DNA of 64,000 nt from Gordonia malaquae NBRC 108250 (GTDB lineage Bacteria; Actinomycetota; Actinomycetes; Mycobacteriales; Mycobacteriaceae), in contig NZ_BAOP01000012.1 of assembly GCF_000344135.1 (NCBI RefSeq), positions 1-64,000 on the forward strand, written 5' to 3'. The position numbers and the translations under genes were made by a program. How positions within the stretch are numbered: position 1 is the stretch's first letter; every line of letters begins with the position of its first letter. The notes beneath the pieces are model-generated. The model searched no databases and was not told where the DNA came from. It worked only from the letters and a program-made list of their open reading frames with translations. Below, piece by piece: positions 2,058-57,554 of the stretch.

Positions 2058-2864
2058 CTAATCGCCCTCGCCGAGCTTGCCGTAGAAGCCGCCGACGATC
2101 GGCGCGACGATCGCTCGCGGGGAGTACCCGCCTGCTACGGACATCGCCTTCGACAGGGTGCCTGGAACGACGCGCATCTTGTTGCGGGCGAGGGCGTCCA
2201 AGCTCATCTCGGCGACCTTCTCCGACGAGTGCCAGAGGAAGTCGGGGACCATCTTGTCGACGATCGACTGATCCTCGGGAGCGGGCGTCTGGGTACGGAC
2301 GGGCCCGGGCGCAAGCAGCGTCACGTGCACACCCGTGCCCTTGAGTTCACCGCGCAATGATTCGCTGAACGTGTTGACGAAGGCTTTCGTCGCGGCGTAC
2401 GTGGCGTTGTTCGGAATCGGCATGTTGCCGGCCGCCGAGCCGACCATGAGGATGCCGCCGGTGTTTCGTTCGATCATCTGCGGCAGGACAGCCAAGGTCA
2501 GGTCGTGCACGGCGACGGCGTTCAACCGGACCTGGGCGCGCTCGTATGCGGCGTCGAGTTCGGCGATCGGACCGAACGTCGCGATTCCCGCGTTGTTGCA
2601 CAGAACCGAGACCTGGCGGTTCGAGAGTTCGTCGCAGAGCACGCCGACCGCGTCCAGATCCGACAGATCCACGGCGCGCACCTCGGCCTCCACCGCAAAA
2701 CGAGAACGCAGTTCGGTGGCCAGCTCTTCGAGGATCTCGCCGCGTCGAGCCACCAGGATCACCGAGTGACCGCGGGCGGCGAGGGCCCTGGCGAGCGCCA
2801 TGCCGATTCCGGATGATGCGCCGGTGACGACGGCGCGGGCGGAGGCAGAGGGAGGTACTGGCAT
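2058..2864 (-). CDS. SDR family NAD(P)-dependent oxidoreductase
   Basis: A 268-residue classical short-chain dehydrogenase. It has the Rossmann motif TGASSGIGMA near the N-terminus, NNAG (LCNNAGIA), a catalytic serine in GSAAGNM, and YAATK as the catalytic Tyr-x-x-x-Lys. I start it at the ATG at 2862-2864, whose upstream sequence on the minus strand is not coding-like. The C-terminal extension (after APGPVRTQ) contains the PDFLW-type segment seen in mycobacterial SDRs of unknown substrate. The substrate cannot be told from the sequence. Confidence 0.9.
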   Translation of the reverse strand: MPVPPSASARAVVTGASSGIGMALARALAARGHSVILVARRGEILEELATELRSRFAVEAEVRAVDLSDLDAVGVLCDELSNRQVSVLCNNAGIATFGPIAELDAAYERAQVRLNAVAVHDLTLAVLPQMIERNTGGILMVGSAAGNMPIPNNATYAATKAFVNTFSESLRGELKGTGVHVTLLAPGPVRTQTPAPEDQSIVDKMVPDFLWHSSEKVAEMSLDALARNKMRVVPGTLSKAMSVAGGYSPRAIVAPIVGGFYGKLGEGD

Positions 2865-3002
2865 GGACCGATCGTAACCGTCGCATCGTCGTGGTCGACG
2901 TCGTGACCGCCGACCCGAGGATGGTGTCGACCGTTCAACCGATTTGTGTGGAACCCGATGTATCGGTGACCGAGAGTCGCTGCTGCAGACCACACTGCAA
3001 GG

Positions 3003-5540
3003 GTGATCACCGACCACGCATTTCGAGCCGGCCAGGCGTGGCAGCGTGCGGCAATTCCCGACGTCGTGGTCACAGGCTGTGTTCTCACCGGTGCAGCGGG
3101 AGTCGGAAAGACGACGGTTCTCGAAAGTCTGCGCGACCGGATCGGTGGCCCTGTCGTCGCAGTCAGCGGTGTCCGACGCACGGCTGAGTTGGTCTTCGGG
3201 CATCTTCCGGGGCTTCGGACCGCACCGCCTGCGGATTCGTCGCAGTCGCTCCGCTGGGCGGTCGCCCGTGAGTTCGGCGACGGCCGGGCCCGAGCCCTGA
3301 TCGTGGACGATGCGCATCTTCTCGACGACGACGCGGCGTCGATCGTCCATTCGCTCGCGGTGCATGACGGAATCCCCATGTACGTCGCCTACACGACATC
3401 GCGCGGCCGCCGTGCGCGGGCCGCCATGCGGTCACTGTGGAAGGACGGACACTTGCCGCGGTACGAGCTGTCTCCGATGAGCGAGGTCGAGGTCCGGGAG
3501 TATCTCGAGTTCGCCGTCAGGGCACCTGTGACGAGCCGCGACGTCGATTCATTCACGCGGTGGTCGCGGGGTGAACCTGGAGTGCTTGTCGAACTCGTCG
3601 CGGCGTCCGACGGACAATGGCGGACGGTGAACGGCGTCGCGATTCTGGCCACTCGTCCGACTCCGCCGCCTGCGCTGATCGAAGAACTCGAGGCGGCGGT
3701 AGCCGAGCTCTCCGAGCGTGAACGCGAAGTGGTGGAGGCTTTTGCCGCTGCCGGACCGGAGATCGGTGGTCGGCTCCTCGACCAGCTGCCGCTGAGTCCG
3801 ATGATCGACTACTGCGGCATGGACACGCTTCTCGAGGCCGAACGTGGCGGCGTCATCGTCGTCGAAGGCGACCGGGTGCGGCTGTCCGTGCCCTTTCTCG
3901 CCGACGCGGTCGCGAACGGCACGCCCGCGCTGCGACGTTCATTGGTCGCTGAGGAACTGGCGCGGTCGGTCCGAGTGGCCCGCATGGCCGGTTCCCCAGC
4001 CGACCCGACGGCACTCGAACAGGCGGTGACTGGGCTCCTGACCGCGCAGTCGCATGCCGGCGTGGGCCCGGTCCGGACGGTTGAGCTGGCGCGCAGCGTT
4101 CTTCGCCTCGGGGACCCGACGATGGTGTGCGACGTTGCCGCGCCAAGAGGAGCGGCACCGGAGAATTCGGCGTTGGCGGCGCTCTACACGTGGGCATTGA
4201 CCGATCTGAACGACGTCCCCCGGATCATGGAGATGCTGGAGACCTGGAAGTCGGACCAGTCGCCGGCGTGGCGTGGAATCGTGGACTTCTACGCCGCGTA
4301 CGGGACCCGGCGTGCTCGCGGTGCGAAGGAGTTCATCACGAAGCACGACACGACGGACGGAGGTGTCGTGGGCAGTGCACTTCGCTGGATCGATCGCGAC
4401 CGTCTGAGCGGAGTCTGGTTCGCCTTCCTCCTTGCCGAGACCGCGATGATGGTCGGGAGATACGACGACGCGCGACGACTGCTCGACGCAGCATCGCCAG
4501 AGGCTGACGACAACGGGTTGCTGGTCTTCGACCTCGCGATGATCGACGTCCACCTCGAGACTGTCGTGGCGGGCGCAGGCCGGGCGTGCGAGCGTGCAGA
4601 GAACGCGAGGCGCGAGAGTTGGTGGCGCAGCGACCACGCCTGCGCCGCAGCCGACTACGTGTGCGCGTCAGCCCACGTATCCGCGGGTCGATTCGCTCAA
4701 GCGAAGGACGAACTGCGCGACAGTGCGCCGTTCGTGGCTGGTCCGGCGCTTGACGGAGCGCCCGCCCGGCTGATGAAGTTGATCGATCGCATGTCGACGG
4801 GCCAACCGAGCCCAGAGGTCGAAGCCACTGTCGACGTGCTGGACGACACGGTCGACCCGTATGCCGTGGTGAGAGTCCGGGACGCAACGATAGTCCGCGC
4901 GTGGGCGGCGGCCACGGCCGACGAGATGTCGGATGCCGTCGATGCACTCCTCGACGCCGGAGCCACGATCGTCGAGCACACGCCGACGATCGCCGTCGAC
5001 CTGTTGGAACTGGCCGCGCGGTTCGTGACGCCGGGCGATCCTCGGATCCAGCGACTCGAGACGATCATCTCTCTGGTCGCCGACAGCGTCGAACCGGCGG
5101 CGCAGGTCGATGCTCTCATCGACTACTGCACAGCGTTGTCCGACACCGACGGCGCCGGACTGTGCGAAGCGGCCAGTCGATATGAACGCCTCGGTCACCT
5201 CCCCGTAGCCGCAGACGCGTTCGCTCATGCCGTGGCAGCGCACCAGGTCAACGGCGATGCGCGGCGAGCTGCGGCAGCCCGATCGGCCGCCCAGAACCTC
5301 GTTCGAACAGTGGGCGGATTGACGTCGCCTGCCCAGCGTGCAATCGCGGCGCCGGTGTTGACTCGACGTGAACGGGAGATCGTGGGGTTGGCCGCCGAAG
5401 CGTTGAGCAACCAGCAGATTGCCGAACGCGTGTCCCTGTCGGTGCGGACAGTCGAGGGCCACGTGCTGCGCGCGTCGGCGAAACTCGGTGTGCAGGATCG
5501 GCACGCTCTCGTGGCAGCATGGCAGGAGCTGCAGACATGA
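3003..5540 (+). CDS. STAND-class LuxR-family transcriptional regulator (first of tandem pair)
   Basis: An 845-residue protein starting at GTG. The N-terminus is an AAA/STAND ATPase: Walker A GAAGVGKTT at about residues 30-38 and Walker B LIVDDAH at about 99-105. A long helical, TPR-like middle of low conservation follows. The last 60 residues are a LuxR helix-turn-helix (LTRREREIV, then NQQIAERVSLSVRTVEGHV). Proteins of this build (MalT/LAL type) bind an inducer with the helical region, hydrolyse ATP and activate promoters. The stop overlaps the start of the next gene by 4 bp (ATGA), so the pair is translationally coupled. The inducer and targets are unknown. The secreted proteins downstream are the nearest candidates. 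Confidence 0.9.
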   Translation: MITDHAFRAGQAWQRAAIPDVVVTGCVLTGAAGVGKTTVLESLRDRIGGPVVAVSGVRRTAELVFGHLPGLRTAPPADSSQSLRWAVAREFGDGRARALIVDDAHLLDDDAASIVHSLAVHDGIPMYVAYTTSRGRRARAAMRSLWKDGHLPRYELSPMSEVEVREYLEFAVRAPVTSRDVDSFTRWSRGEPGVLVELVAASDGQWRTVNGVAILATRPTPPPALIEELEAAVAELSEREREVVEAFAAAGPEIGGRLLDQLPLSPMIDYCGMDTLLEAERGGVIVVEGDRVRLSVPFLADAVANGTPALRRSLVAEELARSVRVARMAGSPADPTALEQAVTGLLTAQSHAGVGPVRTVELARSVLRLGDPTMVCDVAAPRGAAPENSALAALYTWALTDLNDVPRIMEMLETWKSDQSPAWRGIVDFYAAYGTRRARGAKEFITKHDTTDGGVVGSALRWIDRDRLSGVWFAFLLAETAMMVGRYDDARRLLDAASPEADDNGLLVFDLAMIDVHLETVVAGAGRACERAENARRESWWRSDHACAAADYVCASAHVSAGRFAQAKDELRDSAPFVAGPALDGAPARLMKLIDRMSTGQPSPEVEATVDVLDDTVDPYAVVRVRDATIVRAWAAATADEMSDAVDALLDAGATIVEHTPTIAVDLLELAARFVTPGDPRIQRLETIISLVADSVEPAAQVDALIDYCTALSDTDGAGLCEAASRYERLGHLPVAADAFAHAVAAHQVNGDARRAAAARSAAQNLVRTVGGLTSPAQRAIAAPVLTRREREIVGLAAEALSNQQIAERVSLSVRTVEGHVLRASAKLGVQDRHALVAAWQELQT

Positions 5541-8050
5541 CGTGGGAGTACCGGCGGACGGAACAGTTCGATGTCGTCCGACGTGCGTGGTCTAGCGGTC
5601 ACGGTGTGCTGCTGAGCGGCCCCGCCGGTATCGGGAAGACCGCTCTGGCGAGGCACTTCGCCACATCGATCGGCAGGCGGCCGCTGTGGATCATCGCGAC
5701 GCCCGGGATGGTGCAGACTCCGCTTGCGGCTGTGGCGTCCGTAGTTGAGACCGAGCGACTCGGTGACACCGCGGCGACCGTCGAAACGCTCCGGGCACGT
5801 GTCAGGTCCGGTGAGATCGTCGTCGTCGAAGGGGCCGAGTATCTGGACCCGTCGTCAGAAGCGGTGATCGCGCGGCTGTTCACGTCGGTCGCCTGCGCGG
5901 GACTGCTGACCGCACGCGACGCTGCGGGCCCGGTGCTGGGACGTGCGCTTGGAGCAGCAGGTGTCGTCGAGGTGGCGATGACACCGCTCGAGCTCAACAC
6001 CGTCGCGGAGATGGTGGAGCATCGAGTCGACGGGCGACTCTCGGTCGACGACGCGGTACGCCTTCATCGGACCACCGCGGGCAATCCGTTCCTGCTGATC
6101 GCCTGCGTGGACAGCGCATTCGACGGTGGCTCATTGACAGTCGAGGACGGCGTCATCGCCTTGGACGGAGCTTTCGGCGGGTCCCCGGACCTCCTCGATC
6201 TCGGCGCTGATCGCCTCGAACGAGCGAACGATGCGGAACGCGAGTTGATCGACCTGCTGAGCCTGTGTGAACCGCTGCCTCGAGCTGTGGTCGATCATCT
6301 CGGTCTCGCGGATGGAATCAGCGACGCCGAAGGAGGATTGGTTCTTCCGTTGGACGACGCAGTAGTGCCGGGGCATCTCATCTACACTGCGATCCGTCGA
6401 GCGACCATGGGACTGCTTGAGCGGCGGGTGCGTGCTTCCCGGCTGGCGGACGCGATGAACGCCGTCGACGGAGGCCCGATCGGCCGAGTCCACCGAGCGC
6501 GACTGTGCCTGGACTACACCATGCCGATCAGTGCGGGTGATCTCGCCGAGAGCGCGGCTCTTGCGTTCATGATGGGTGACTTCCCGATGGCCGAGCGCTG
6601 TGCGCGCGCAGCGGTGACCGCAGGCGGAGGCCTCGGTGCGCTCCTGCAGTTGGCGCGAGCCCAGTCCGGGATGGGGCGGTCGGCGCTGGCACACCAGACC
6701 CTCGACGGTGTCGATCCGGACTCGCTCGACGCAGACGAGCTCGGCGGCTACGCGATCAGTGCGGCGCTGACGTTCCTGGTGGGCGACGGTGACCACTCCG
6801 GTGCGGTGACCGTCCTCGACAAATTCGAGCCACGCCTCGAATCGGCGGCGGCACTGTCGTCGTTCGCTGCGGTACGGGCTCTCGCACACGTCAATGCTGG
6901 AGCTCAGGCCGCAGCACTCCGGTGGTCGCGGCGGGCGCAAGCGCTGGCGGCGGGCGCACCGCTGTGGACAAGTTTGGGGGAGTACGTCGAAGCGGAATCC
7001 CTGCGTCGATCCGGCGAAGTACGCCGACCCGTGCACCTCGCGAGCGACGCCCTCGTCCAAGCCGGACAGCTGGGCTCGGTGTTGGCCACCGGTGCGCGCA
7101 GGACGATTGTGCAAGCTCTGCTGGCGGACGGCGACGTCGGGACTGCAGCAGCCGTCGCCGACAAGCTCCTTGAGGCGACGCTTCTGCACCACGTCCCCCG
7201 TGCGATCGCCTGTGCGACGAGAGCCGCAGTCGACATAGCCCGCGGCCAGCACGAACCGGCGCTCAGACTATGCGCCGAATCGTTGCAGTCGCTCGGCGAG
7301 TACGACCGGACCGGTCTGGGCCGGGGCGTCGCCATGCTCGTTGCGCTCGTGTGCGCGGAGACTGGCGACGTTGACGGAGCGCGGCGCGCCGTTGAGCAGA
7401 GCACGCGTGGCACAGTCGCAGCCGACGGCTGGGGCGGCATCAACCCTCGACTCGCCGCCGCGTTCACCGCCGTCGCCGAGGGCGAGCTGATCGCTCCTTC
7501 GGCAGTGCTTCGGGACATCGCTCAGACATGCATCCGTGCTGAGCAGTGGACCGACGCTGTAGCGGTGCTGCATTGCGCGGTGCGGTGGGGCGACGTCGAA
7601 GCAGCTCGGATGCTGACTGAAGCAGCCGCAACATGTGAAGGTCGCACTGTCGAGGTTCAGCGGCGGCACGCATCGGCGTTGGCGGCGTCCGACGCAGAGG
7701 GGCTTGTCCTCGTCTCCGGCCAGTTCGCCGATCTTGGGTTCATCCCCTCCGCGGTCGATGCGCTCGGACAGGCGGTCGTTGCTCATCGGTCAGCCGGACG
7801 AGCAGGCCTGGCCGACACACTCCTGACGTGCCTCTCTGCGCTGCAGGGCAGGTGCGGTCCACTGGACACGCCGGCTCTCCGCGCGGCGCTCGGTCCCGCC
7901 GGGCTGACACGACGAGAGTCCGAAGTGACGTGGTTGCTCGCTTCCGGCGAGTCGGTCCAGCAGATCGCCGACCGCCTGTCTGTGCGTGCGCCGACGGTAC
8001 GGGCGCTGGCAGCACGTGCTCGCGCCAAGTCGACGGTCACCGGGCACTGA
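5537..8050 (+). CDS. STAND-class LuxR-like regulator (second of tandem pair, divergent HTH)
   Basis: 837 residues, the same layout as its neighbour: Walker A SGPAGIGKTAL at about residues 27-37, a helical middle, and a C-terminal LTRRESEV segment. I start it at the ATG at 5537 inside the ATGA overlap, with AGGAG 8 nt upstream, rather than the GTG at 5519. The HTH differs from the canonical form: the recognition helix is APTVRALAARARAK instead of TVEGHV, and the protein ends early in VTGH. Tandem duplication followed by divergence is the likely origin. It may bind DNA poorly alone and act with the first protein, but that is inference. Confidence 0.85.
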   Translation: MTWEYRRTEQFDVVRRAWSSGHGVLLSGPAGIGKTALARHFATSIGRRPLWIIATPGMVQTPLAAVASVVETERLGDTAATVETLRARVRSGEIVVVEGAEYLDPSSEAVIARLFTSVACAGLLTARDAAGPVLGRALGAAGVVEVAMTPLELNTVAEMVEHRVDGRLSVDDAVRLHRTTAGNPFLLIACVDSAFDGGSLTVEDGVIALDGAFGGSPDLLDLGADRLERANDAERELIDLLSLCEPLPRAVVDHLGLADGISDAEGGLVLPLDDAVVPGHLIYTAIRRATMGLLERRVRASRLADAMNAVDGGPIGRVHRARLCLDYTMPISAGDLAESAALAFMMGDFPMAERCARAAVTAGGGLGALLQLARAQSGMGRSALAHQTLDGVDPDSLDADELGGYAISAALTFLVGDGDHSGAVTVLDKFEPRLESAAALSSFAAVRALAHVNAGAQAAALRWSRRAQALAAGAPLWTSLGEYVEAESLRRSGEVRRPVHLASDALVQAGQLGSVLATGARRTIVQALLADGDVGTAAAVADKLLEATLLHHVPRAIACATRAAVDIARGQHEPALRLCAESLQSLGEYDRTGLGRGVAMLVALVCAETGDVDGARRAVEQSTRGTVAADGWGGINPRLAAAFTAVAEGELIAPSAVLRDIAQTCIRAEQWTDAVAVLHCAVRWGDVEAARMLTEAAATCEGRTVEVQRRHASALAASDAEGLVLVSGQFADLGFIPSAVDALGQAVVAHRSAGRAGLADTLLTCLSALQGRCGPLDTPALRAALGPAGLTRRESEVTWLLASGESVQQIADRLSVRAPTVRALAARARAKSTVTGH

Positions 8051-8188
8051 GACGACCCGGTTTCCGTTCAGTGCACGTAGTCGAGTAGTGATCGCGTCGT
8101 AAACGAGTAGTCGGTGATCTGTCGCGCCGCTGCAGCTCAGCGCATGGTCGATGGGACCGAGACGCGGTCATCTGAAGGGAGTTCGACG

Positions 8189-8788
8189 ATGAGATCTACA
8201 CATGCAGCGACACGACTCGCGGTGGTCGGCGCGGTCGCGGCAACGGTCGGAGCAGCGTCGCTCATCGGGGCGGGTGACGCGTCCGCGTGGGCGACGAAGT
8301 CCGGGCATCCTGCAACAATCGACACGTCGGGCGGGACACTCACGGTGACGGTCACGAATCCGTTCACCGTGCCGATCGACTGCGCTGCCGCGGTCTTTCC
8401 GCGGTCGCAGAAGGACAAGGCTGCACAGCTCGCTTCGCATACCAACACCATGATGGCGAAGTACAATTCGGGCGATTACGCCGGTGCCGCGGCGGAGAAT
8501 GCGGCTGCGGATGCGGTGTATCAGGAACTGATCCCGACTGCGATCGGTGGCGGTCAGATCGACGTTCCTGCGTCGTCGACGAGGAGCGAAGAGGTCCAGC
8601 AGCTACCGGTGTCGCCTGACCAGTACACAGTGCTCTCGATCTGTCGGGCCGACTTGAACGGTGAGGCCGAAGACGAGATTCCCGCTCAGCTCGACGCCGA
8701 TGCTCAGGTGTTCAATCCCGGTTCGGTGTCGACTGGACCCGACTGGGGAAGCGTCGGCGATCTGCTGCCGGACTTCCTCCCGAACTGA
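8189..8788 (+). CDS. Secreted protein of unknown function
   Basis: 199 residues with a clear signal peptide: MRSTHAATRLAV, a hydrophobic core and cleavage after GDASA. The start is the ATG at 8189, preceded by GAAGGGAG. The mature part begins WATKSGHPATI and contains an Ala-rich helical segment (residues ~95-125) and a Pro/Asp-ending tail DLLPDFLPN. I recognise no family. It lies 138 bp after the second LuxR-like gene on the same strand and is followed by another secreted protein. Confidence 0.75.
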   Translation: MRSTHAATRLAVVGAVAATVGAASLIGAGDASAWATKSGHPATIDTSGGTLTVTVTNPFTVPIDCAAAVFPRSQKDKAAQLASHTNTMMAKYNSGDYAGAAAENAAADAVYQELIPTAIGGGQIDVPASSTRSEEVQQLPVSPDQYTVLSICRADLNGEAEDEIPAQLDADAQVFNPGSVSTGPDWGSVGDLLPDFLPN

Positions 8789-8930
8789 CCGCATTGCAGC
8801 GTGCTCATGCCGGAGTTCACCGGAGTGTCTCTGCCGCGTAGCGGTCGTGGAACACGAGTGGTCGCGCAACCAGTCCACCTTCAGGAACGGTCATCGGTGA
8901 CCGAGAAGCCGTCACGAATGAGAGAGTCAG

Positions 8931-10505
8931 ATGCGTTCACATGTATCCGTCGGATCGGCGATGACCTGGCAGTTGCGCACGATCGGCGCTGCAGCGGGAG
9001 TCGGCGCGGCGATCTGCCTGAGCCAGGGCCAGGCGTGGGCCGAGGATGAACCGCCGCAGTCACCCAGCGTGACAGCCGAGGTGACTGAGCCCGATTCTGC
9101 AGCCGAATCGTCTGACTCCGGTACGCCTGCAGAATCGGAATCGGGGTCTTCAGACGACACCGCCCCGACAACGCCGGCTCCGATCGAGACCGCACCCGAG
9201 ATCGAGGCGGAACGTTCGAGTCCGACCGGCTCCGCCGATGCGGCGTCTGATGTCCCCGAGGCCACCGCCGCCTCGACGAATATCGTCCACGACGTTGATG
9301 GTCACCTGCGGCACGGCGATCAGGGCGTGACCGATAGAACGGCTGGTGGACGTCCCGCCGCGGTGTCGCCGTCGGTCGGTCAGCCTGGTGTGGTGTCCGA
9401 CCGACGGACGTCGGCGGTTGTGCCGTTCGAGGCCGTTCGAGTGCCCTCTGCGGGTCCGTCGGTGGCGTTCCCGCGGCCCACGTTCGGGTCGACGGCGCCG
9501 GCACCGATGCCAGGTTGGCTCGGCGTGTTTGGTCTGACCCCGACGTCCGGCTCAGGCGAGAAGCCGCCGCGAACGGTCGACGCGTTGTCGTGGGTCCTGC
9601 TGTGGTTCACCCGGCGGCAGCCGCAGGAGGCGAGATCCGCGATCGACCCGATCGCGACGCCCGTCGCTACGGCGTTCGCAACCATGTCGGCGGAGCCGAC
9701 GCTGACCGACGCAGCCACCGGTGCGCTCGCCTTCGAGCCGGTTCTTCCGTCGAGTCTGGAAGACAACCCGCTGTGGGACTACAGCGAGTCTCCGTCGTGG
9801 TTGCGGGTGGTTCGAACCGCGCCTGCACCGTCGACGATGGTCGACCCGATCACCGGCGAAGAGGTCGCAGTGGAGTACTGGCTCATCGCGACGGAGGGGC
9901 AGGTCTGCGTTGAGGCTTCGTGTGACGGACTCACTCCTCACCATCCGATTGCGGCAAAGCCCTTGGCTGTTGGGGACAACGTCTACGAGGAGATCCGGCT
10001 CGGAGGCGTCTATACCCACGGCGAGAAGGTCAACAATTACTATCTCGCGGTGTATCGAGTGGGTGAGACGCCGGTCTCGATCTCTACGCTGCCGAGGATG
10101 ATGCCGTCAGCGCCGGGGACCACACCCACGGACCCGGTCGACCCGACTGATCCCACAGATCCCACAGATCCGACTGATCCCACTGACCCGACCGATCCGC
10201 CTGTCACCTGGCCCGGGTTTCCGTGGGAGGAGGGATTCAACGAGGAGTCGTGGGAGGCGTTCACCACGATCACCGGGAACATTCCAGTCGTCGGCAACGT
10301 CACGAGTGCAATCGGCATGTTCGTAGACGGATACCAATACGGGACGTGTCTCATCAACGGCGACGCGGAATGTCTCGCGGACGAACTGGGCGACATCGTC
10401 GGTGGCTTCGTCGGCACATTCGTTCCGGCGCCGTTCGGGGACACGGTCGGCAACTACATCGGGAACGCAGTGACCGACGGAATTCACGACCTGTTCGACT
10501 TCTGA
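8931..10505 (+). CDS. Large secreted protein with Asp-Pro-Thr repeat linker
   Basis: 524 residues. The signal peptide ends at GQAWA (about residue 37), followed by a Ser/Glu/Asp/Pro-rich disordered stretch to about residue 200. A folded region of about 200 residues follows (around WLRVVRTAPAP and ITGEEVAVEYW, with two closely spaced Cys, CVEASC). Then comes a Pro-Thr-Asp repeat linker. The last ~100 residues carry Gly-rich helices (VVGNVTSAIGMF, DIVGGFVGTFVP) and two further Cys. The start could also be the internal ATG 10 codons on. No family is recognised. The layout resembles a surface protein whose C-terminal domain is held on a flexible stalk. Confidence 0.8.
   Translation: MRSHVSVGSAMTWQLRTIGAAAGVGAAICLSQGQAWAEDEPPQSPSVTAEVTEPDSAAESSDSGTPAESESGSSDDTAPTTPAPIETAPEIEAERSSPTGSADAASDVPEATAASTNIVHDVDGHLRHGDQGVTDRTAGGRPAAVSPSVGQPGVVSDRRTSAVVPFEAVRVPSAGPSVAFPRPTFGSTAPAPMPGWLGVFGLTPTSGSGEKPPRTVDALSWVLLWFTRRQPQEARSAIDPIATPVATAFATMSAEPTLTDAATGALAFEPVLPSSLEDNPLWDYSESPSWLRVVRTAPAPSTMVDPITGEEVAVEYWLIATEGQVCVEASCDGLTPHHPIAAKPLAVGDNVYEEIRLGGVYTHGEKVNNYYLAVYRVGETPVSISTLPRMMPSAPGTTPTDPVDPTDPTDPTDPTDPTDPTDPPVTWPGFPWEEGFNEESWEAFTTITGNIPVVGNVTSAIGMFVDGYQYGTCLINGDAECLADELGDIVGGFVGTFVPAPFGDTVGNYIGNAVTDGIHDLFDF
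10131..10200 (+). repeat. In-frame 9-bp repeats coding Asp-Pro-Thr
   Basis: About seven units of a GAYCCSACN-type 9-bp repeat code for DPT/DPV/DPP in a row inside the secreted protein gene. This is a low-complexity linker that can change in length by slippage. Confidence 0.85.
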
Positions 10506-53154: not shown

Positions 53155-53763
53155 ATGGCTGATAACGATCGTGTTGACTTCTGGTTCGACCCCTTCTGCC
53201 CGTGGTGCTGGATCACGTCACGCTGGATTCTCGAGGCCGCGCAGGTCCGCGAGCTCGACGTGAACTTCCACATCATGAGTCTGGCCGTCTTGAACGAGGG
53301 CAAGGACATCCCCGACGGCTACCGCGAGATGCTGAAGGACGCATGGCAGCCGGTCCGTGTGCTCGCCGCGGCTCAGGCGCGTCACGGTGACGGCGTCCTC
53401 GCACCTCTGTACACGGCGATGGGCACCCAGCTTCATAACAACGGGAACCGCGACATCCCGGCGATGATCGCGACCTCACTCGCTGAGGCGGGTCTGGAAG
53501 CCGATCTGGCGGACGCCGCGCACAGCGAGGAGTTCGACGCCGCCATCCGTACCAGTCACCATGCGGGCATGGACAAAGTCGGCGACGACGTCGGCACCCC
53601 CACGATCCACGTCAACGGCATCGCGTTCTTCGGGCCCGTCCTGTCCCGCATCCCGCGCGGCGAGGACGCCGGTCGGGTGTGGGACGGCGTCGTCGCACTC
53701 GCGTCGTACCCGCACTTCTTCGAACTCAAGCGCTCCCGCCACGAAGACCCGCAGTTCGACTGA
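53155..53763 (+). CDS. Mycothiol-dependent DsbA-like oxidoreductase (Rv2466c type)
   Basis: 202 residues from ATG 53155. It has the active site DPFCPWCW near the N-terminus, a helical insertion, and cis-Pro GTPTIHVNG. Matches the mycothiol-dependent nitroreductase Rv2466c of the DsbA-FrnE fold, which is cytoplasmic and active on nitro-compounds. Orthologous neighbours: pepN upstream and rpiB further downstream. Confidence 0.92.
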   Translation: MADNDRVDFWFDPFCPWCWITSRWILEAAQVRELDVNFHIMSLAVLNEGKDIPDGYREMLKDAWQPVRVLAAAQARHGDGVLAPLYTAMGTQLHNNGNRDIPAMIATSLAEAGLEADLADAAHSEEFDAAIRTSHHAGMDKVGDDVGTPTIHVNGIAFFGPVLSRIPRGEDAGRVWDGVVALASYPHFFELKRSRHEDPQFD

Positions 53764-53868
53764 CCTCGACCTGGCGGTGGTGCGCCTTTCCACTCCGAGT
53801 CTCGCCGGATATGTCTGTGCCGTGTGGCATGCTGTGCGCACTGGTCACCGAGAGGATCTGTGAGTCGA

Positions 53869-55998
53869 ATGCGTGCGTACGAACTGGACCTGTCAAAAAT
53901 CACATCTTCCTCCGGCGAGGTACAGGGGGATACTGGTGGCGTATCGGCCGTCTGTATCGCGTCGCTGTTCGAGCATCGCGGCAAGCGGTTCCTCACCGAG
54001 GGCGACGCGATGTCGGCAGTGCTCGGGAACGCCGGGTGTGGTGATGGTCCGGGCGATTCTGCATTAGTCAGTTCGTTGCTCCGGACTGTCGGGGTCCCCT
54101 CACCGTCAGTACCTCGACCGCTGCCGGACGACGTCGTTCGGCAGCTCGGTGTGTATGTGTACGCGCTCGTCGACCCGCGCGACGGACTTCCGTTCTATAT
54201 CGGTAAGGGACAGGGCAATCGGGTCCATATGCACGTGTGGGGTGCGATTGGCAGCCCGATAACAACGATCGAGCCCATGATCTCGGAGCTTGAGACGGCG
54301 GTGAAGAGCGCGCGGATTCGGAGTATCTTCGCAGATGGCTTTGGAGTCGAGCACTGGATTCTCCGTCATGGAATCGTTGGAGACGATGATCCGGACGATG
54401 AAGCGTTCGCGATCGAACAATGTCTGATCGACTTCGCGAAATTGTCCAGGGTGTCGTTGACAAACGCTCAGGGTGGTCACGTAAGCACGGGGCAGGGTGC
54501 GTGCCGCACGGAAGAACTCTCAGTGGCCTATGGTGCGCCGCTGGCACCTCCGCTGCCGCGGCCCTGTGCACTGATCAAAGTGAACGCGGCTGCGGCACCT
54601 GACGCGACTACCGAGCAGATCTATGCGTGGGCCAGGGAAGCATGGCGCGCGGGACCTGACTCGCGAGGTGTAGACGGCCTACCGATAATTGTCTTCGCCG
54701 AAGACGTGATCCGCGCGGTCTTCAGGGCGACCTCCTGGGAGCCCGTCGGTGCCGCCTGGCGATTCACCGGTAGACCGGACAAGGTGCTCGAGCGAAAGTT
54801 CGTCGGCACAAGCCTTCGAGAGGTTAGAGCGGCGCGTCGCGGCGAGCGGTGGCGTCAACACGGGTGGCATCCGTATCTCTCAGAGAAGGGCGGAAGTGAC
54901 ACGGCGACGGTGGCGGAGGACCGAATCGCCGGATGCCTTGTCGGAGGAGCTGTCGGAGACGCTCTGGGTGCACCGATCGAGTTCTGTTCCCGCCAGCAGA
55001 TCATGGCCACCTTCGGTCCGCGCGGTTTAGTCGAGTACGCCGAGGCCTACGGCGGTATCGGGAAGGTGACAGACGACACTCAGATGTCGTTGTTCACTGC
55101 TGAGGGCCTCCTGCGTGGACGTTCCCGTGCACTCGATCGCGCGGGCGGTGGTGGTTTCGGAAGTCTCGCAACAGTGGACTTTGCGTATCAGCGATGGTTA
55201 GAGACGCAGGGCATCCGTCCGGTGCTGACGCTTCCAGACGCCGCCGGGCGTTGGCTGATCGATCACCGAGAGCTTCACGACCGAAGGGCACCGGGGGCGA
55301 CGTGTCTTAGCGCCCTGCAGTCGAAGACGGGTCCTGGCGAGTTCGCAACGAATGACAGCAAGGGCTGTGGTGGGGTGATGAGGGCGGCTCCGGTCGGATT
55401 GTTCGGCTACGCCATGGGTGAACCTGTCGATCGAATCTTTGAACACGGTGCCGATGTAGCGAGACTCACGCACGGAAACCCCAGTGGGTATCTTCCGGCG
55501 GGTGTGCTTGCAGCGACGGTCCATCAACTGATCGGCGGTGCGTCCATCGATGAGGCGGTTTCGGCAGCTCTCGCAATTCTGCGTCAATGCGAGGGGGCGT
55601 CTGAGACCCTTACCGCCATAGACCGTGCGCTAGAACTCGCAGAAGGCGGTGTGCCAGTCGCGGAAGCGATCCAGAACTTGGGTGAAGGCTGGGTCGGAGA
55701 AGAAGCTCTTGCTATCGCCATCTACAGCGCGTTGGTGGCAGACAATTTCGACGATGGTGTGGCCATCGCTGTGAACCATGACGGCGATTCGGACTCCACC
55801 GGGGCGATCGTGGGCAACATCCTTGGAGCGAAGCTCGGTGCGTCGGCGATCTCGTCTCAGTGGACTGACGACCTCGAGTTGCGGGACGTCCTTTTCGAGG
55901 TTGCTGAGGATATGGCGGGGTGCGGTAAATGGGACGCCCGAGCCGAAAGAGGTGCCGAGCGTTGGAAAGCAAATCTAGACAAGTATCCGCCATTTTGA
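53869..55998 (+). CDS. GIY-YIG (LEM-3-like) / EVE-like / ADP-ribosylglycohydrolase fusion protein
   Basis: 709 residues from ATG 53869 (a GTG at 53860 is too near its ribosome site). Residues 1-92 are of unknown fold. Residues 93-205 look like a LEM-3-type GIY-YIG nuclease: VYVYAL, FYIGKGQGNRVHMHV, Glu 183 in AIEQCLIDF. Residues 232-335 resemble the EVE/PUA-like partner of such nucleases (IRAVFRATSWEPVGAAWRF). Residues 351-690 are a DraG-type ADP-ribosylglycohydrolase: GCLVGGAVGDALGAP, metal motif TDDTQM (401-406), and HDGDSDSTGAIVGN (638-650). It should remove ADP-ribose from a substrate that the nuclease part may also bind. Codon use is less G/C-rich at third positions than in its neighbours, and it interrupts a conserved block, so it was probably acquired. 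Confidence 0.82.
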   Translation: MRAYELDLSKITSSSGEVQGDTGGVSAVCIASLFEHRGKRFLTEGDAMSAVLGNAGCGDGPGDSALVSSLLRTVGVPSPSVPRPLPDDVVRQLGVYVYALVDPRDGLPFYIGKGQGNRVHMHVWGAIGSPITTIEPMISELETAVKSARIRSIFADGFGVEHWILRHGIVGDDDPDDEAFAIEQCLIDFAKLSRVSLTNAQGGHVSTGQGACRTEELSVAYGAPLAPPLPRPCALIKVNAAAAPDATTEQIYAWAREAWRAGPDSRGVDGLPIIVFAEDVIRAVFRATSWEPVGAAWRFTGRPDKVLERKFVGTSLREVRAARRGERWRQHGWHPYLSEKGGSDTATVAEDRIAGCLVGGAVGDALGAPIEFCSRQQIMATFGPRGLVEYAEAYGGIGKVTDDTQMSLFTAEGLLRGRSRALDRAGGGGFGSLATVDFAYQRWLETQGIRPVLTLPDAAGRWLIDHRELHDRRAPGATCLSALQSKTGPGEFATNDSKGCGGVMRAAPVGLFGYAMGEPVDRIFEHGADVARLTHGNPSGYLPAGVLAATVHQLIGGASIDEAVSAALAILRQCEGASETLTAIDRALELAEGGVPVAEAIQNLGEGWVGEEALAIAIYSALVADNFDDGVAIAVNHDGDSDSTGAIVGNILGAKLGASAISSQWTDDLELRDVLFEVAEDMAGCGKWDARAERGAERWKANLDKYPPF

Positions 55999-56011
55999 GA
56001 AGTCTCGCGGA

Positions 56012-57052
56012 TCAATAGGTCCTGGTCTCCGACAACTTGTTCGGCATCGAACCTGGCGCGACTTGCGCGGGTGGCAGGGGAGCGGGAACGGGGACGACGT
56101 TGCCGCTGCCCGTGCCTCTGACGAAAGCTCGGGGCCGCAGCAGGATGGATCCGCTGCGCGTTCGGTCGCGGAGCGCGGCGGCGCGCCAGGTGAGCACGGG
56201 GTGCGAGCTCAATGCGTTCACCAGGACGACGAAGAACCCCTTCTCGTGGGTGGCGCGGTCGGCGAACTGGTCGAAGTCGACCGCACTGAGCAGGTACTTG
56301 CCCGATGCGAGGACGCCGATCGCGGGCGCCGCGCCGTCGGGCCGGGTGTAGTAGCCGTAGTTGTCGGCGGTGTACTCCTGCGCGCGTGACAGCAGTGAGC
56401 CGAGGATCGGGATGTTCATGATCACGCTGCTGAACAGCTGACGCCAGTAGGAGACGTGGCCCGCCGCGATGTGCCCGACTTCGTGTCCGATCACGAACTC
56501 GAGGGCCTCGGGGCTGCGGGCCCGCCCGCCGACCTCGAACAGGTCCGAGTACACGACGACGAACCGACGAAAACCGTGGCCGGACGCGAACGCATTGATC
56601 TGCCCGTTCCCGGACATCACATACGCGTCGGGGACGTACTCCATTCCATACCGCGCCGCAGCCTCGACGACCATCGTGAACGCCTCGGGAAACTGTGTCG
56701 GCGTGATCTGGACTGCGTTCGCTCGAATGCTCGCGTAACCGATCCCGCGGCCGAGGAAGATGAGGAACGGCAGGGCGAGCGGAATCAGCAGATACTCGGT
56801 CACGAGGCCGATGGAGATCAAGGCGAGGATGACCGCGTAGACGCCGACCGCCAGGAGCACGGCGAGCACAAGCACCGGAATCTCCCACGGATGACGACGC
56901 GGAGCACCCGCGTACAACGCAGGCTGCTGCCAGACGCTCGTCGGCCCGGGAGGCGGGGTTACCGCGGCGGGCCGCGTGTCGTCCACACCGGGAACCGACG
57001 GGATCGGCGAGTCGGCGAGTCTGGAGCGGGGGATGGGCGCATCGGAGTCCAC
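56012..57052 (-). CDS. M48 family membrane metalloprotease (HtpX-like)
   Basis: 346 residues, GTG start. A Pro-rich cytoplasmic N-terminus is followed by two transmembrane segments (IPVLVLAVLLAVGVYAVIL, YLLIPLALPFLIFLG). Zinc motif HEVGHIAAGH follows, and a downstream Glu in RAQEYTADNYGY. A membrane quality-control peptidase. The start lies 22 bp from rpiB on the other strand, and both appear to share one palindromic -10 element. Confidence 0.9.
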   Translation of the reverse strand: MDSDAPIPRSRLADSPIPSVPGVDDTRPAAVTPPPGPTSVWQQPALYAGAPRRHPWEIPVLVLAVLLAVGVYAVILALISIGLVTEYLLIPLALPFLIFLGRGIGYASIRANAVQITPTQFPEAFTMVVEAAARYGMEYVPDAYVMSGNGQINAFASGHGFRRFVVVYSDLFEVGGRARSPEALEFVIGHEVGHIAAGHVSYWRQLFSSVIMNIPILGSLLSRAQEYTADNYGYYTRPDGAAPAIGVLASGKYLLSAVDFDQFADRATHEKGFFVVLVNALSSHPVLTWRAAALRDRTRSGSILLRPRAFVRGTGSGNVVPVPAPLPPAQVAPGSMPNKLSETRTY

Positions 57053-57060
57053 GCCCTCAA

Positions 57061-57068
57061 ACTATAGT
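57061..57068. promoter_or_regulatory. Shared palindromic -10 element for rpiB and the M48 gene
   Basis: ACTATAGT is its own reverse complement, so TATAGT reads on both strands. It ends 6 nt before the rpiB ATG and 8 nt before the GTG of the peptidase gene. Neither gene has a Shine-Dalgarno. Both transcripts would be leaderless. Confidence 0.5.
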
Positions 57069-57074
57069 GGCGGC

Positions 57075-57554
57075 ATGCGCATCTACCTCGGAGCCGACCA
57101 TGCAGGATTTGAACTCAAGAACCAGATCTCTGACCATCTGAAGGCCGCGGGCCACGACGTGGTCGACTGCGGAGCTCACGAGTACGACGCGGTCGACGAC
57201 TACCCGGCGTTCTGCATCGCGGCCGCCGAGCGCGTCGTCGCCGACCCGGGCAGCCTCGGATTCGTTCTCGGCGGAAGCGGCAACGGCGAGCAGATCGCCG
57301 CGAACAAGGTCAAGGGCGCGCGCTGCGCCCTCGCGTGGAGCGTGGAGACCGCCCAGCTCGCGCGTCAGCACAACAATGCGCAGCTCATCGGCATCGGTGG
57401 CCGCATGCACAGCACCGAAGAGGCGCTTGCGATCGTCGACGCGTTCATCGGCGCCGACTGGTCGGACGAGGCGCGTCACCAGCGTCGTATCGACATCCTC
57501 GCCGAGTACGAGACGACCGGCGTCGCGCCGGAGCTGCCCGAGCCCCCTCGCTGA
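57075..57554 (+). CDS. rpiB: Ribose-5-phosphate isomerase B
   Basis: 159 residues from ATG 57075. It has RIYLGADHAGFELKNQI, GAHEYDAVDDYPAFC, the active-site VLGGSGNGEQIAANKVKGARCAL and ARQHNNAQLIGIGGRM. It interconverts ribose-5-phosphate and ribulose-5-phosphate in the pentose phosphate pathway. Same place as Rv2465c, 15 bp before the nei2-type glycosylase. Confidence 0.96.
   Translation: MRIYLGADHAGFELKNQISDHLKAAGHDVVDCGAHEYDAVDDYPAFCIAAAERVVADPGSLGFVLGGSGNGEQIAANKVKGARCALAWSVETAQLARQHNNAQLIGIGGRMHSTEEALAIVDAFIGADWSDEARHQRRIDILAEYETTGVAPELPEPPR

Follow-up and report, generated by a model that had tools for sequence, protein, structure and literature searches.

The window analyzed here is a 64,000-nucleotide stretch of Gordonia malaquae NBRC 108250 (contig NZ_BAOP01000012.1, positions 1 to 64,000; genome G000 in our samples). 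Near its right end, a single gene encodes a protein that, judged by homology, is a CMoRE-type restriction enzyme (a GIY-YIG nuclease domain followed by a modification-sensing domain) with an added ADP-ribose hydrolase of the ADP-ribosylglycohydrolase (ARG) family. Residue numbers of this protein count from ATG 53869. Reference numbering is that of the E. coli plasmid copy (L089), which agrees with Y17, Y19, Y31 and Y127 of PMC12923530. GC3 denotes the G+C content of third codon positions.

53768..56011, no strand: inserted segment, 2,244 bp, between the Rv2466c-like and M48 peptidase genes (blastn against L254 of genome G038)
53850..53855, + strand: GAGAGG, resembling a ribosome-binding site, 4 bases before GTG 53860 (sequence reading)
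53860..55998, + strand: fusion gene, 712 codons from GTG (open reading frame; GC3 0.649)
53860..54120, + strand: N-terminal extension, residues 1-84 counted from ATG (alignment with relatives)
54121..54507, + strand: GIY-YIG nuclease domain, PD-T4-3/CMoRE family, residues 85-213 (Pfam, PADLOC, PDB, alignment)
54148..54162, + strand: GVYVY, the "GIYxY" motif with third tyrosine; Y96 and Y98 correspond to E. coli Y17 and Y19 (alignment)
54193..54225, + strand: FYIGKG...NRV, second half-motif; Y110 corresponds to E. coli Y31, plus Arg118 (alignment)
54379..54402, + strand: GDDDPDDE, acidic run directly before the catalytic-Glu helix (sequence reading)
54409..54465, + strand: Glu183, catalytic (AIEQ; E93 of L089), and Asn199 (LTN; N105) (alignment)
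54508..54882, + strand: modification-sensing domain, residues 214-338 (PDB, alignment; 61% identity between fused proteins)
54883..54918, + strand: linker, residues 339-350 (17% identity between fused proteins)
54919..55914, + strand: ARG (ARG/DraG/ARH) domain, residues 351-682 (PF03747, alignment A5, PDB relatives)
55069..55086, + strand: TDDTQM (401-406), first metal-binding motif (invariant in 14 of 14 A5 rows, window included)
55465..55482, + strand: LTHGNP, "TH" motif of ARG domains (T and H invariant in 14 of 14 A5 rows, window included)
55783..55803, + strand: GDSDSTG, second metal-binding motif (GDSDST 639-644; GDSDS invariant in 14 of 14 A5 rows, window included)

The gene had first been noted as 53869..55998 in a sequence-only reading, made from the letters and open reading frames without database searches. 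That stretch is indeed one open frame on the plus strand, but the start is probably GTG 53860 rather than ATG 53869 (712 and 709 codons, respectively), because GAGAGG lies 4 bases upstream of the GTG and the resulting MSRMRAYEL resembles the MSRMDAVEL of stand-alone relatives. An open run of 742 codons lies within the 2,244-bp segment. This is far beyond chance, as 500 simulations under a first-order Markov model, scored on both strands, averaged 211 codons and never exceeded 383. The fusion protein is real and intact. The N-terminal extension has no Pfam match; it is partly common to stand-alone actinobacterial relatives and is missing from the E. coli copy. Scans of 53700-56100 returned no sigma-70-type promoter and no terminator.

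The gene is an insertion, a one-gene unit with foreign GC3. In the nearest relative (G038, 97% identity over four core proteins) the same neighbors flank no insert; the blastn alignment breaks off after 53767 and picks up again at 56012, and G038 has 36 bp of intergenic DNA there instead. Among the other 58 genomes of the genus, rpiB follows closely after the Rv2466c-like gene (dsbA) in 57, with the M48 gene between them in 50 and without it in 7, and none of these 57 carries the fusion gene at this locus. The 58th (L273) gave no match downstream of dsbA. GC3 of the fusion gene is 0.649, against 0.822-0.862 in seven nearby genes. The gene therefore came in by itself, bringing about 90 bp ahead of it.

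The two enzymatic halves

Pfam recognizes a LEM-3-like GIY-YIG domain at residues 109-208 (E 2.4e-8), in keeping with the LEM-3-type domain of the sequence-only reading. The PADLOC model for PD-T4-3 aligns with residues 86-291 (E 6.1e-27, profile positions 7-190 of 256), and the best PDB matches of the N-terminal half are the CMoRE chains 9u75 and 9u7u, over residues 85-290 (9u75, E 1.7e-19). With a profile of the window protein and 12 viral-contig relatives, a profile that contains E. coli-like rows, the 9u75 match reached E 4.3e-110; at E ≤ 10 the same 13-row profile retrieved the two CMoRE chains and nothing else from the PDB. By these matches, residues 85-338 belong to the PD-T4-3/CMoRE family and are not a new nuclease-plus-EVE pair.

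CMoRE is the new name of PD-T4-3, a single-gene type IV restriction enzyme that has been crystallized (PMC12923530). Its C-terminal domain binds DNA containing 5-hydroxymethylcytosine (5hmC) or its glucosylated form (5ghmC), its GIY-YIG domain cuts that DNA, and T-even phages are blocked; once autoinhibition is lost the enzyme is toxic, and most, not all, members carry a negatively charged loop above the active site, for which the available text gives no residue numbers (PMC12923530). Judged from the family, the nuclease half probably acts in modified-DNA restriction. The likeness (PDB 9u75, 9u7u; PMC12923530) covers the GIYxY-YIG type of GIY-YIG domain followed by the sensing domain, the catalytic residues and the single-gene format, to which the window protein adds about 84 residues at the N-terminus and an ARG of about 330 at the C-terminus. 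The sequence-only reading knew of no described system with this domain order; the first two domains turn out to be a described, crystallized enzyme, so only the C-terminal ARG is new.

The family traits GVYVY, FYIG, R118 and E183 are all present. Residues Y17, Y19, Y31, Y127, E93 and N105 of L089 correspond to Y96, Y98, Y110, Y221, E183 and N199. Ten active-site or near-site positions were checked (Y96, Y98, Y110, G112, K113, R118, H122, K146, E183 and N199). They are invariant across the window protein and the 12 viral-contig relatives in the alignment, and intact in both known fused proteins, in G052 and G073, in three Rhodococcus plasmids, in the E. coli plasmid copy and in 10 of 10 tabulated viral-contig relatives. 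The run GDDDPDDE, which stands elsewhere than the acidic stretch of the E. coli plasmid protein, may serve as an autoinhibitory loop.

Residues 232-335 had been taken for an EVE/PUA-like domain, which sequence searches did not support. A profile search with PF01878 (EVE) found no match in the window's own genome, the sensing domain alone has no EVE match in Pfam, and the PDB profile search showed no EVE relation. Comparison with the EVE profile by hhalign gave a probability of 0.2, in a weak test with an EVE profile of only two sequences. The stretch is better assigned to the modification-sensing domain of PD-T4-3/CMoRE, for which the CMoRE authors report no sequence or structure homologue (PMC12923530). 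Tyr221 aligns with E. coli Tyr127, whose main chain contacts 5hmC in CMoRE (PMC12923530).

The C-terminal half matches ADP_ribosyl_GH (PF03747) at residues 355-662 (E 1.4e-69), over profile positions 1-285 of 287. The DraG-type hydrolase of the sequence-only reading is thereby upheld, and TDDTQM, GDSDST and Glu183 lie at the positions it gave. The homology identifies residues 351-682 as an ARG with intact metal-binding motifs and an intact TH motif, the latter named for ARG domains in PMC9503650. Among solved PDB chains, MJ1187, R. rubrum DraG and Tri1 come nearest, and ARH1 ranks lower. The window domain shares with this family (DraG, ARH1, ARH3, Tri1, MJ1187) the near-full PF03747 match and the TDDT, GDSDS and TH motifs; it differs in being fused behind a nuclease and in lacking a recognized partner transferase among those neighbors, some of the total, that were scanned. 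It also falls below the NCBIfam cut-offs for DraG (72.7 bits against 337.05) and Tri1 (72.3 against 490), and because these models lie so far below their cut-offs, the ARG substrate cannot be read from a name. Pfam recognized no DarT, macrodomain or NADAR in the fusion protein.

Distribution and relatives of the fusion

We searched 59 genomes of the genus, a sample of 201 relatives, and samples of the order (397), class (394) and phylum (396); the last three overlap, each includes the window's genome, and at most two candidates per genome were scored. The fused order occurs in two of the 59 genomes, that of the window and G040, and the sample of 201 relatives yielded the same two. The order, class and phylum samples contained no fusion beyond the window's own genome. 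No place in the plasmids (51 records) or phages (24 records) covered 80% of the query, and when named genomes and viral contigs were searched with the whole protein, the 13 and 8 loci obtained, respectively, aligned with nothing but the ARG half. The 80 viral loci kept out of 235 came from a search with just the nuclease half; the frames read in 22 of these, at 172-314 codons, are too short for a fusion.

Several candidates were rejected. In G151 and G218, what seemed to extend the ARG match leftward past residue 340 is of low identity and interrupted by stops, the local match in G423 begins at 351, and in a long frame of G614 only an ARG was recognized. The long frames of G1045 and G1100 encode other architectures: a double ARG in one chain in the former, and in the latter a 734-codon frame (L322:4774-6975) joining a microbial-type PARG to an ARG domain 41.9% identical to that of the window. 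The double ARG gene adjoins a gene on the opposite strand for a D12 class N6-adenine DNA methyltransferase (L316:355-2565 and 2796-3965). On Cereibacter plasmid pRSKD131B (L068:6305-7942), an ARG 44.5% identical to the window's is fused to a DSP/PTP-type phosphatase (PTP-SAK and Tc-R-P by Pfam), which we take to be of the rhodanese type; the fusion resembles the phosphatase-ARG architecture predicted in PMC9503650. The ARG relatives in the phosphatase and PARG fusions are thus 42-45% identical to the window's domain.

We found no protein combining GIY-YIG and ADP-ribosylglycohydrolase domains in the papers searched; the accessible text of PMC3482391 contains the latter term once and the former never. 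Nor did publications on CMoRE, PD-T4-3 or type IV restriction with ADP-ribose, including the available portion of PMC10273834, describe such a fusion. The main text of PMC12923530, as available, contains neither "ribosyl" nor "ADP-ribos". It names four architecture types with unnamed extra domains, so an ARG type may already be drawn in a figure of that paper.

The second fused protein (G040; 732 residues from the first start) is 52% identical to the window's, and its gene occupies a different locus in a distant species. Identity is 53% in the GIY-YIG domain, 61% in the sensor and 56% in the ARG, and falls to 17% in the linker and 30% in the N-terminal extension; conserved enzyme parts joined by an unconserved linker are what selection on both enzymes would produce. 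The gene lies among defense genes (L312:9436-17014, and L048, about 1,023-1,051 kb). Its neighbors include two helicases, one DpdE-like (4.5e-261) and one HmaA-like whose match falls in two frames (3.5e-225 and 4.6e-133), and upstream stand LeoA/LeoBC-like dynamins, a GmrSD_N protein and UvrD/PD-(D/E)XK genes. By these single-gene matches the surroundings look like a defense island; the UvrD/PD-(D/E)XK genes could be ordinary recombination genes instead.

In phylogenetic trees, the nuclease half groups with other actinobacterial copies (support 96/99), and the ARG half with stand-alone ARGs of the genus and copies from Plesiomonas, Pseudomonas veronii and others; the ARG of the G040 fusion pairs with that of Plesiomonas (98/88). 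The best trees separate the two fusions, and the approximately unbiased (AU) test does not reject a single origin (p 0.112 for the nuclease half, 0.161 for the ARG), so that one old fusion or two like fusions would fit. G101 and G105 were left out of the nuclease tree, and L200 and L193 also for the AU test; the ARG set had 43 rows in the tree and 27 in the AU test, which drew a program warning of long branches. As the two copies sit at different loci in distant species, the fused unit either survived transfer or arose twice.

In thirteen genomes of the genus, a chromosomal CMoRE-like gene stands alone; these copies form their own branch (100/99; copies L033, L044 and L076-L086; neighborhoods L047, L049, L051, L054, L058, L060, L062, L063 and L121). 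K113 and K146 are altered in all 13 copies and E183 in 12 of the 13, and much of the sensor persists; they are possibly readers without a nuclease. The copies in G014, G022, G023, G033 and G040 each have close by a gene from the same cluster, classed by Pfam as ClpC-like in G014. Loss of the catalytic Glu across homologues, which the sequence-only reading had named as refuting it, gives a divided picture: both fused proteins retain the residue, as do the tabulated relatives from plasmids, E. coli and viral contigs, but it is lost in 12 of the 13 stand-alones. The fused proteins are unaffected by this loss because the decayed copies form a separate branch.

Outside the genus, the active sites of the nuclease half are decayed in G066 and G105 too. 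The G052 copy is intact and adjoins a phage-type integrase. The three Rhodococcus plasmids examined, of four records found, have intact copies (L069, L070 and L071; about 7863-9969). In these plasmids the CMoRE-like genes are located 33-52 bases after an annotated recombinase (a resolvase by Pfam in L069).

Among the 59 genomes, a stand-alone ARG (54-57% identical) and a CMoRE-like gene occur together in 11, a CMoRE-like gene alone in 3, a close ARG alone in 0 and the fusion alone in 1; this count excludes the distant ARGs of G025 (32% identical) and G000, the ARG of G018 is in two frames, and G022 has a second, distant CMoRE-like gene. The two stand-alone genes share one contig in nine genomes, about 28-86 kb apart and with different neighbors. 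We rejected the co-occurrence as evidence of linkage. The 11 genomes fall in one clade of 12 on a quick species tree, three rows of which were less than half filled, and two changes suffice for the pattern.

Candidate roles of the fusion

The fusion is very likely a defense gene. The reading we favor, with a probability of about 0.42, is that it is a mobile single-gene anti-phage protein in which a modified-DNA nuclease is paired with an ARG that undoes phage-made ADP-ribosylation. The sensing domain would bind phage DNA with enlarged bases (5hmC, glucosylated or similar), and the GIY-YIG domain would then cut it. The ARG domain would hydrolyze ADP-ribose from macromolecules, most likely proteins (the host's or the nuclease itself) modified by a phage ADP-ribosyltransferase. 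One chain could in this way attack modified phage DNA and cancel the protein-tagging counter-attack of the same phage. Homologues point to the modified-base recognition, DNA cutting and ADP-ribose hydrolysis; context suggests the phage-made target and the cooperation of the two activities, and the coupled anti-ADP-ribosylation role is, we stress, a best-supported guess. That a single chain acts as a dual immune enzyme, sensing bases and cutting DNA while its ARG reverses ADP-ribosylation of host targets or of the nuclease, we propose only tentatively.

Large DNA viruses, phages included, often encode ADP-ribosyltransferases, and host resistance to these has been a matter of prediction (PMC9503650). 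The gp2 protein of Gordonia phage Nebulosus is one Vip2-like ADP-ribosyltransferase (PMC10586128). ARG domains without a coupled transferase have been argued to form host systems that counter phage ADP-ribosyltransferases; many are fused to rhodanese-type phosphatases or encoded next to them, and some have links to nucleases (PMC9503650). The window gene resembles these systems in having an ARG with no coupled transferase recognized among the scanned neighbors, in the nuclease effectors predicted there and in the Cereibacter relative of its ARG that is fused to a phosphatase. In contrast, the nucleases of those systems have the restriction-endonuclease fold and are encoded by neighboring genes, "GIY" is absent from the available text of PMC9503650, and the window gene has no coupled Nudix/WYL regulator, phosphatase or chaperone. 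Because it was inserted alone, we regard it as like these systems and not as a member. CMoRE gains here a C-terminal enzymatic module, and nearby lineages have kept the sensing domain while the nuclease site decayed. If the favored reading is true, restriction and counter-counter-defense reside in one chain, and the predicted immunity against viral ADP-ribosylation acquires an experimental entry. The joining, in nature, of a proven modified-DNA restriction family to an ADP-ribose hydrolase allows host resistance to viral ADP-ribosyltransferases to be tested directly, using a single gene and mutants that inactivate either half.

Several points weigh against this interpretation. Rare as it is, the fusion could be an accident of short duration. 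Among the 201 sampled relatives, no listed genome outside the genus with a strong ARG match (E<1e-40) also shows a match to the nuclease half, and vice versa. The co-presence of stand-alone ARG and CMoRE-like genes amounts to about one event, since the 11 of 59 genomes are confined to one clade. The module is not always kept as a nuclease, as the decayed sites in all 13 stand-alones, G066 and G105 indicate. In the alignment, the E. coli copy's acidic stretch falls opposite IGSPITTIEPMISELETA of the window protein; it has no counterpart at that place. The modified base 5hmC is known from T-even phages of E. coli. Finally, we found no published activity measurement for the window protein or its fused relative.

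The strongest rival, unlikely in our view, is that a plain CMoRE-type restriction enzyme became fused with an ARG gene as a passenger, the two activities being independent. Such ARG genes are common, and were matched alone in the order, class and phylum samples; the restriction of the fusion to two of 59 genomes also fits. Against it, both fused proteins keep all checked catalytic residues in both halves despite about 48% divergence, and the two copies lie at different loci in distant species.

The sequence-only reading had combined nuclease, modified-base reader and ADP-ribose eraser in one chain for defense, and this much gains from the homology to anti-phage CMoRE and from the defense genes around the G040 copy. 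Its proposed substrate, ADP-ribosylated DNA or RNA, fares less well. Here the sensor would read an ADP-ribose tag, the ARG would remove it and the nuclease would cut what is irreparable, for example after a DarT-like attack. The ARH-like protein SCO5809 does remove ADP-ribose from RNA phosphate ends (PMC11833690), so nucleic-acid ends could also be an ARG target, and CMoRE tolerates bulky base groups (5ghmC; PMC12923530). SCO5809 is, however, inactive on guanosine-linked ADP-ribose in RNA, on which NADARs are active (PMC11833690); by analogy, removal of base-linked ADP-ribose by the fusion would be less likely. The fusion shares with DarTG and DarT-NADAR a connection of ADP-ribose with phage defense, but its protein has no DarT, macrodomain or NADAR. 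DarT (PF14487) occurs in two of the 59 genomes of the genus, neither with the fusion, and gave no match in G000 or G040, so the suggested DarT-like link is not supported; the survey of homologues proposed with it recovered a fused copy amid defense genes but no association with DarT. The sole published function that we found for the nuclease-sensor half is modified-DNA restriction. We consider a nucleic-acid ADP-ribose substrate improbable.

Quite improbable, too, is that the ARG strips a sugar-like adduct from hypermodified phage bases, so enabling the attached nuclease or other restriction enzymes. The physical fusion to a modified-base sensor speaks for it, and wider ARG substrates have been proposed from context (PMC9503650). 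Yet the characterized ARG enzymes act on ADP-ribose linkages (PMC9503650), and CMoRE cuts 5ghmC DNA unaided (PMC12923530). We know of no ARG relative that acts on glycosylated bases.

DraT and DraG control nitrogenase. On this model, the host would ADP-ribosylate the nuclease to silence it and the attached ARG would re-activate it, a form of self-control to which we give marginally less credence still. The ARG half is homologous to the DraG family, and because CMoRE is toxic once autoinhibition is lost (PMC12923530), a brake on the nuclease is plausible. The neighbors scanned include no recognized ADP-ribosyltransferase, and the modifying enzyme and its eraser would have to travel separately. 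A selfish homing nuclease is very improbable: although "putative homing nuclease" is the annotation given to relatives from Pseudomonas phage OBP and from Klebsiella phage N1M2, PD-T4-3/CMoRE relatives are proven anti-phage enzymes, the gene lies between two bacterial genes and an ARG domain has no role in homing.

The window's genome carries a second, distant ADP-ribosylglycohydrolase gene (C92:24339-25181, L002; E 4.1e-55 to PF03747). Among the genes of the window, the labels Rv2466c-like, M48 and Fpg/Nei are Pfam results, and pepN and rpiB come from sequence reading. The M48 peptidase frame (56012-57052, minus strand) and the oppositely oriented rpiB frame (56976-57554, plus strand) share an overlap of their 5' ends; one of the two listed starts is therefore probably too early.

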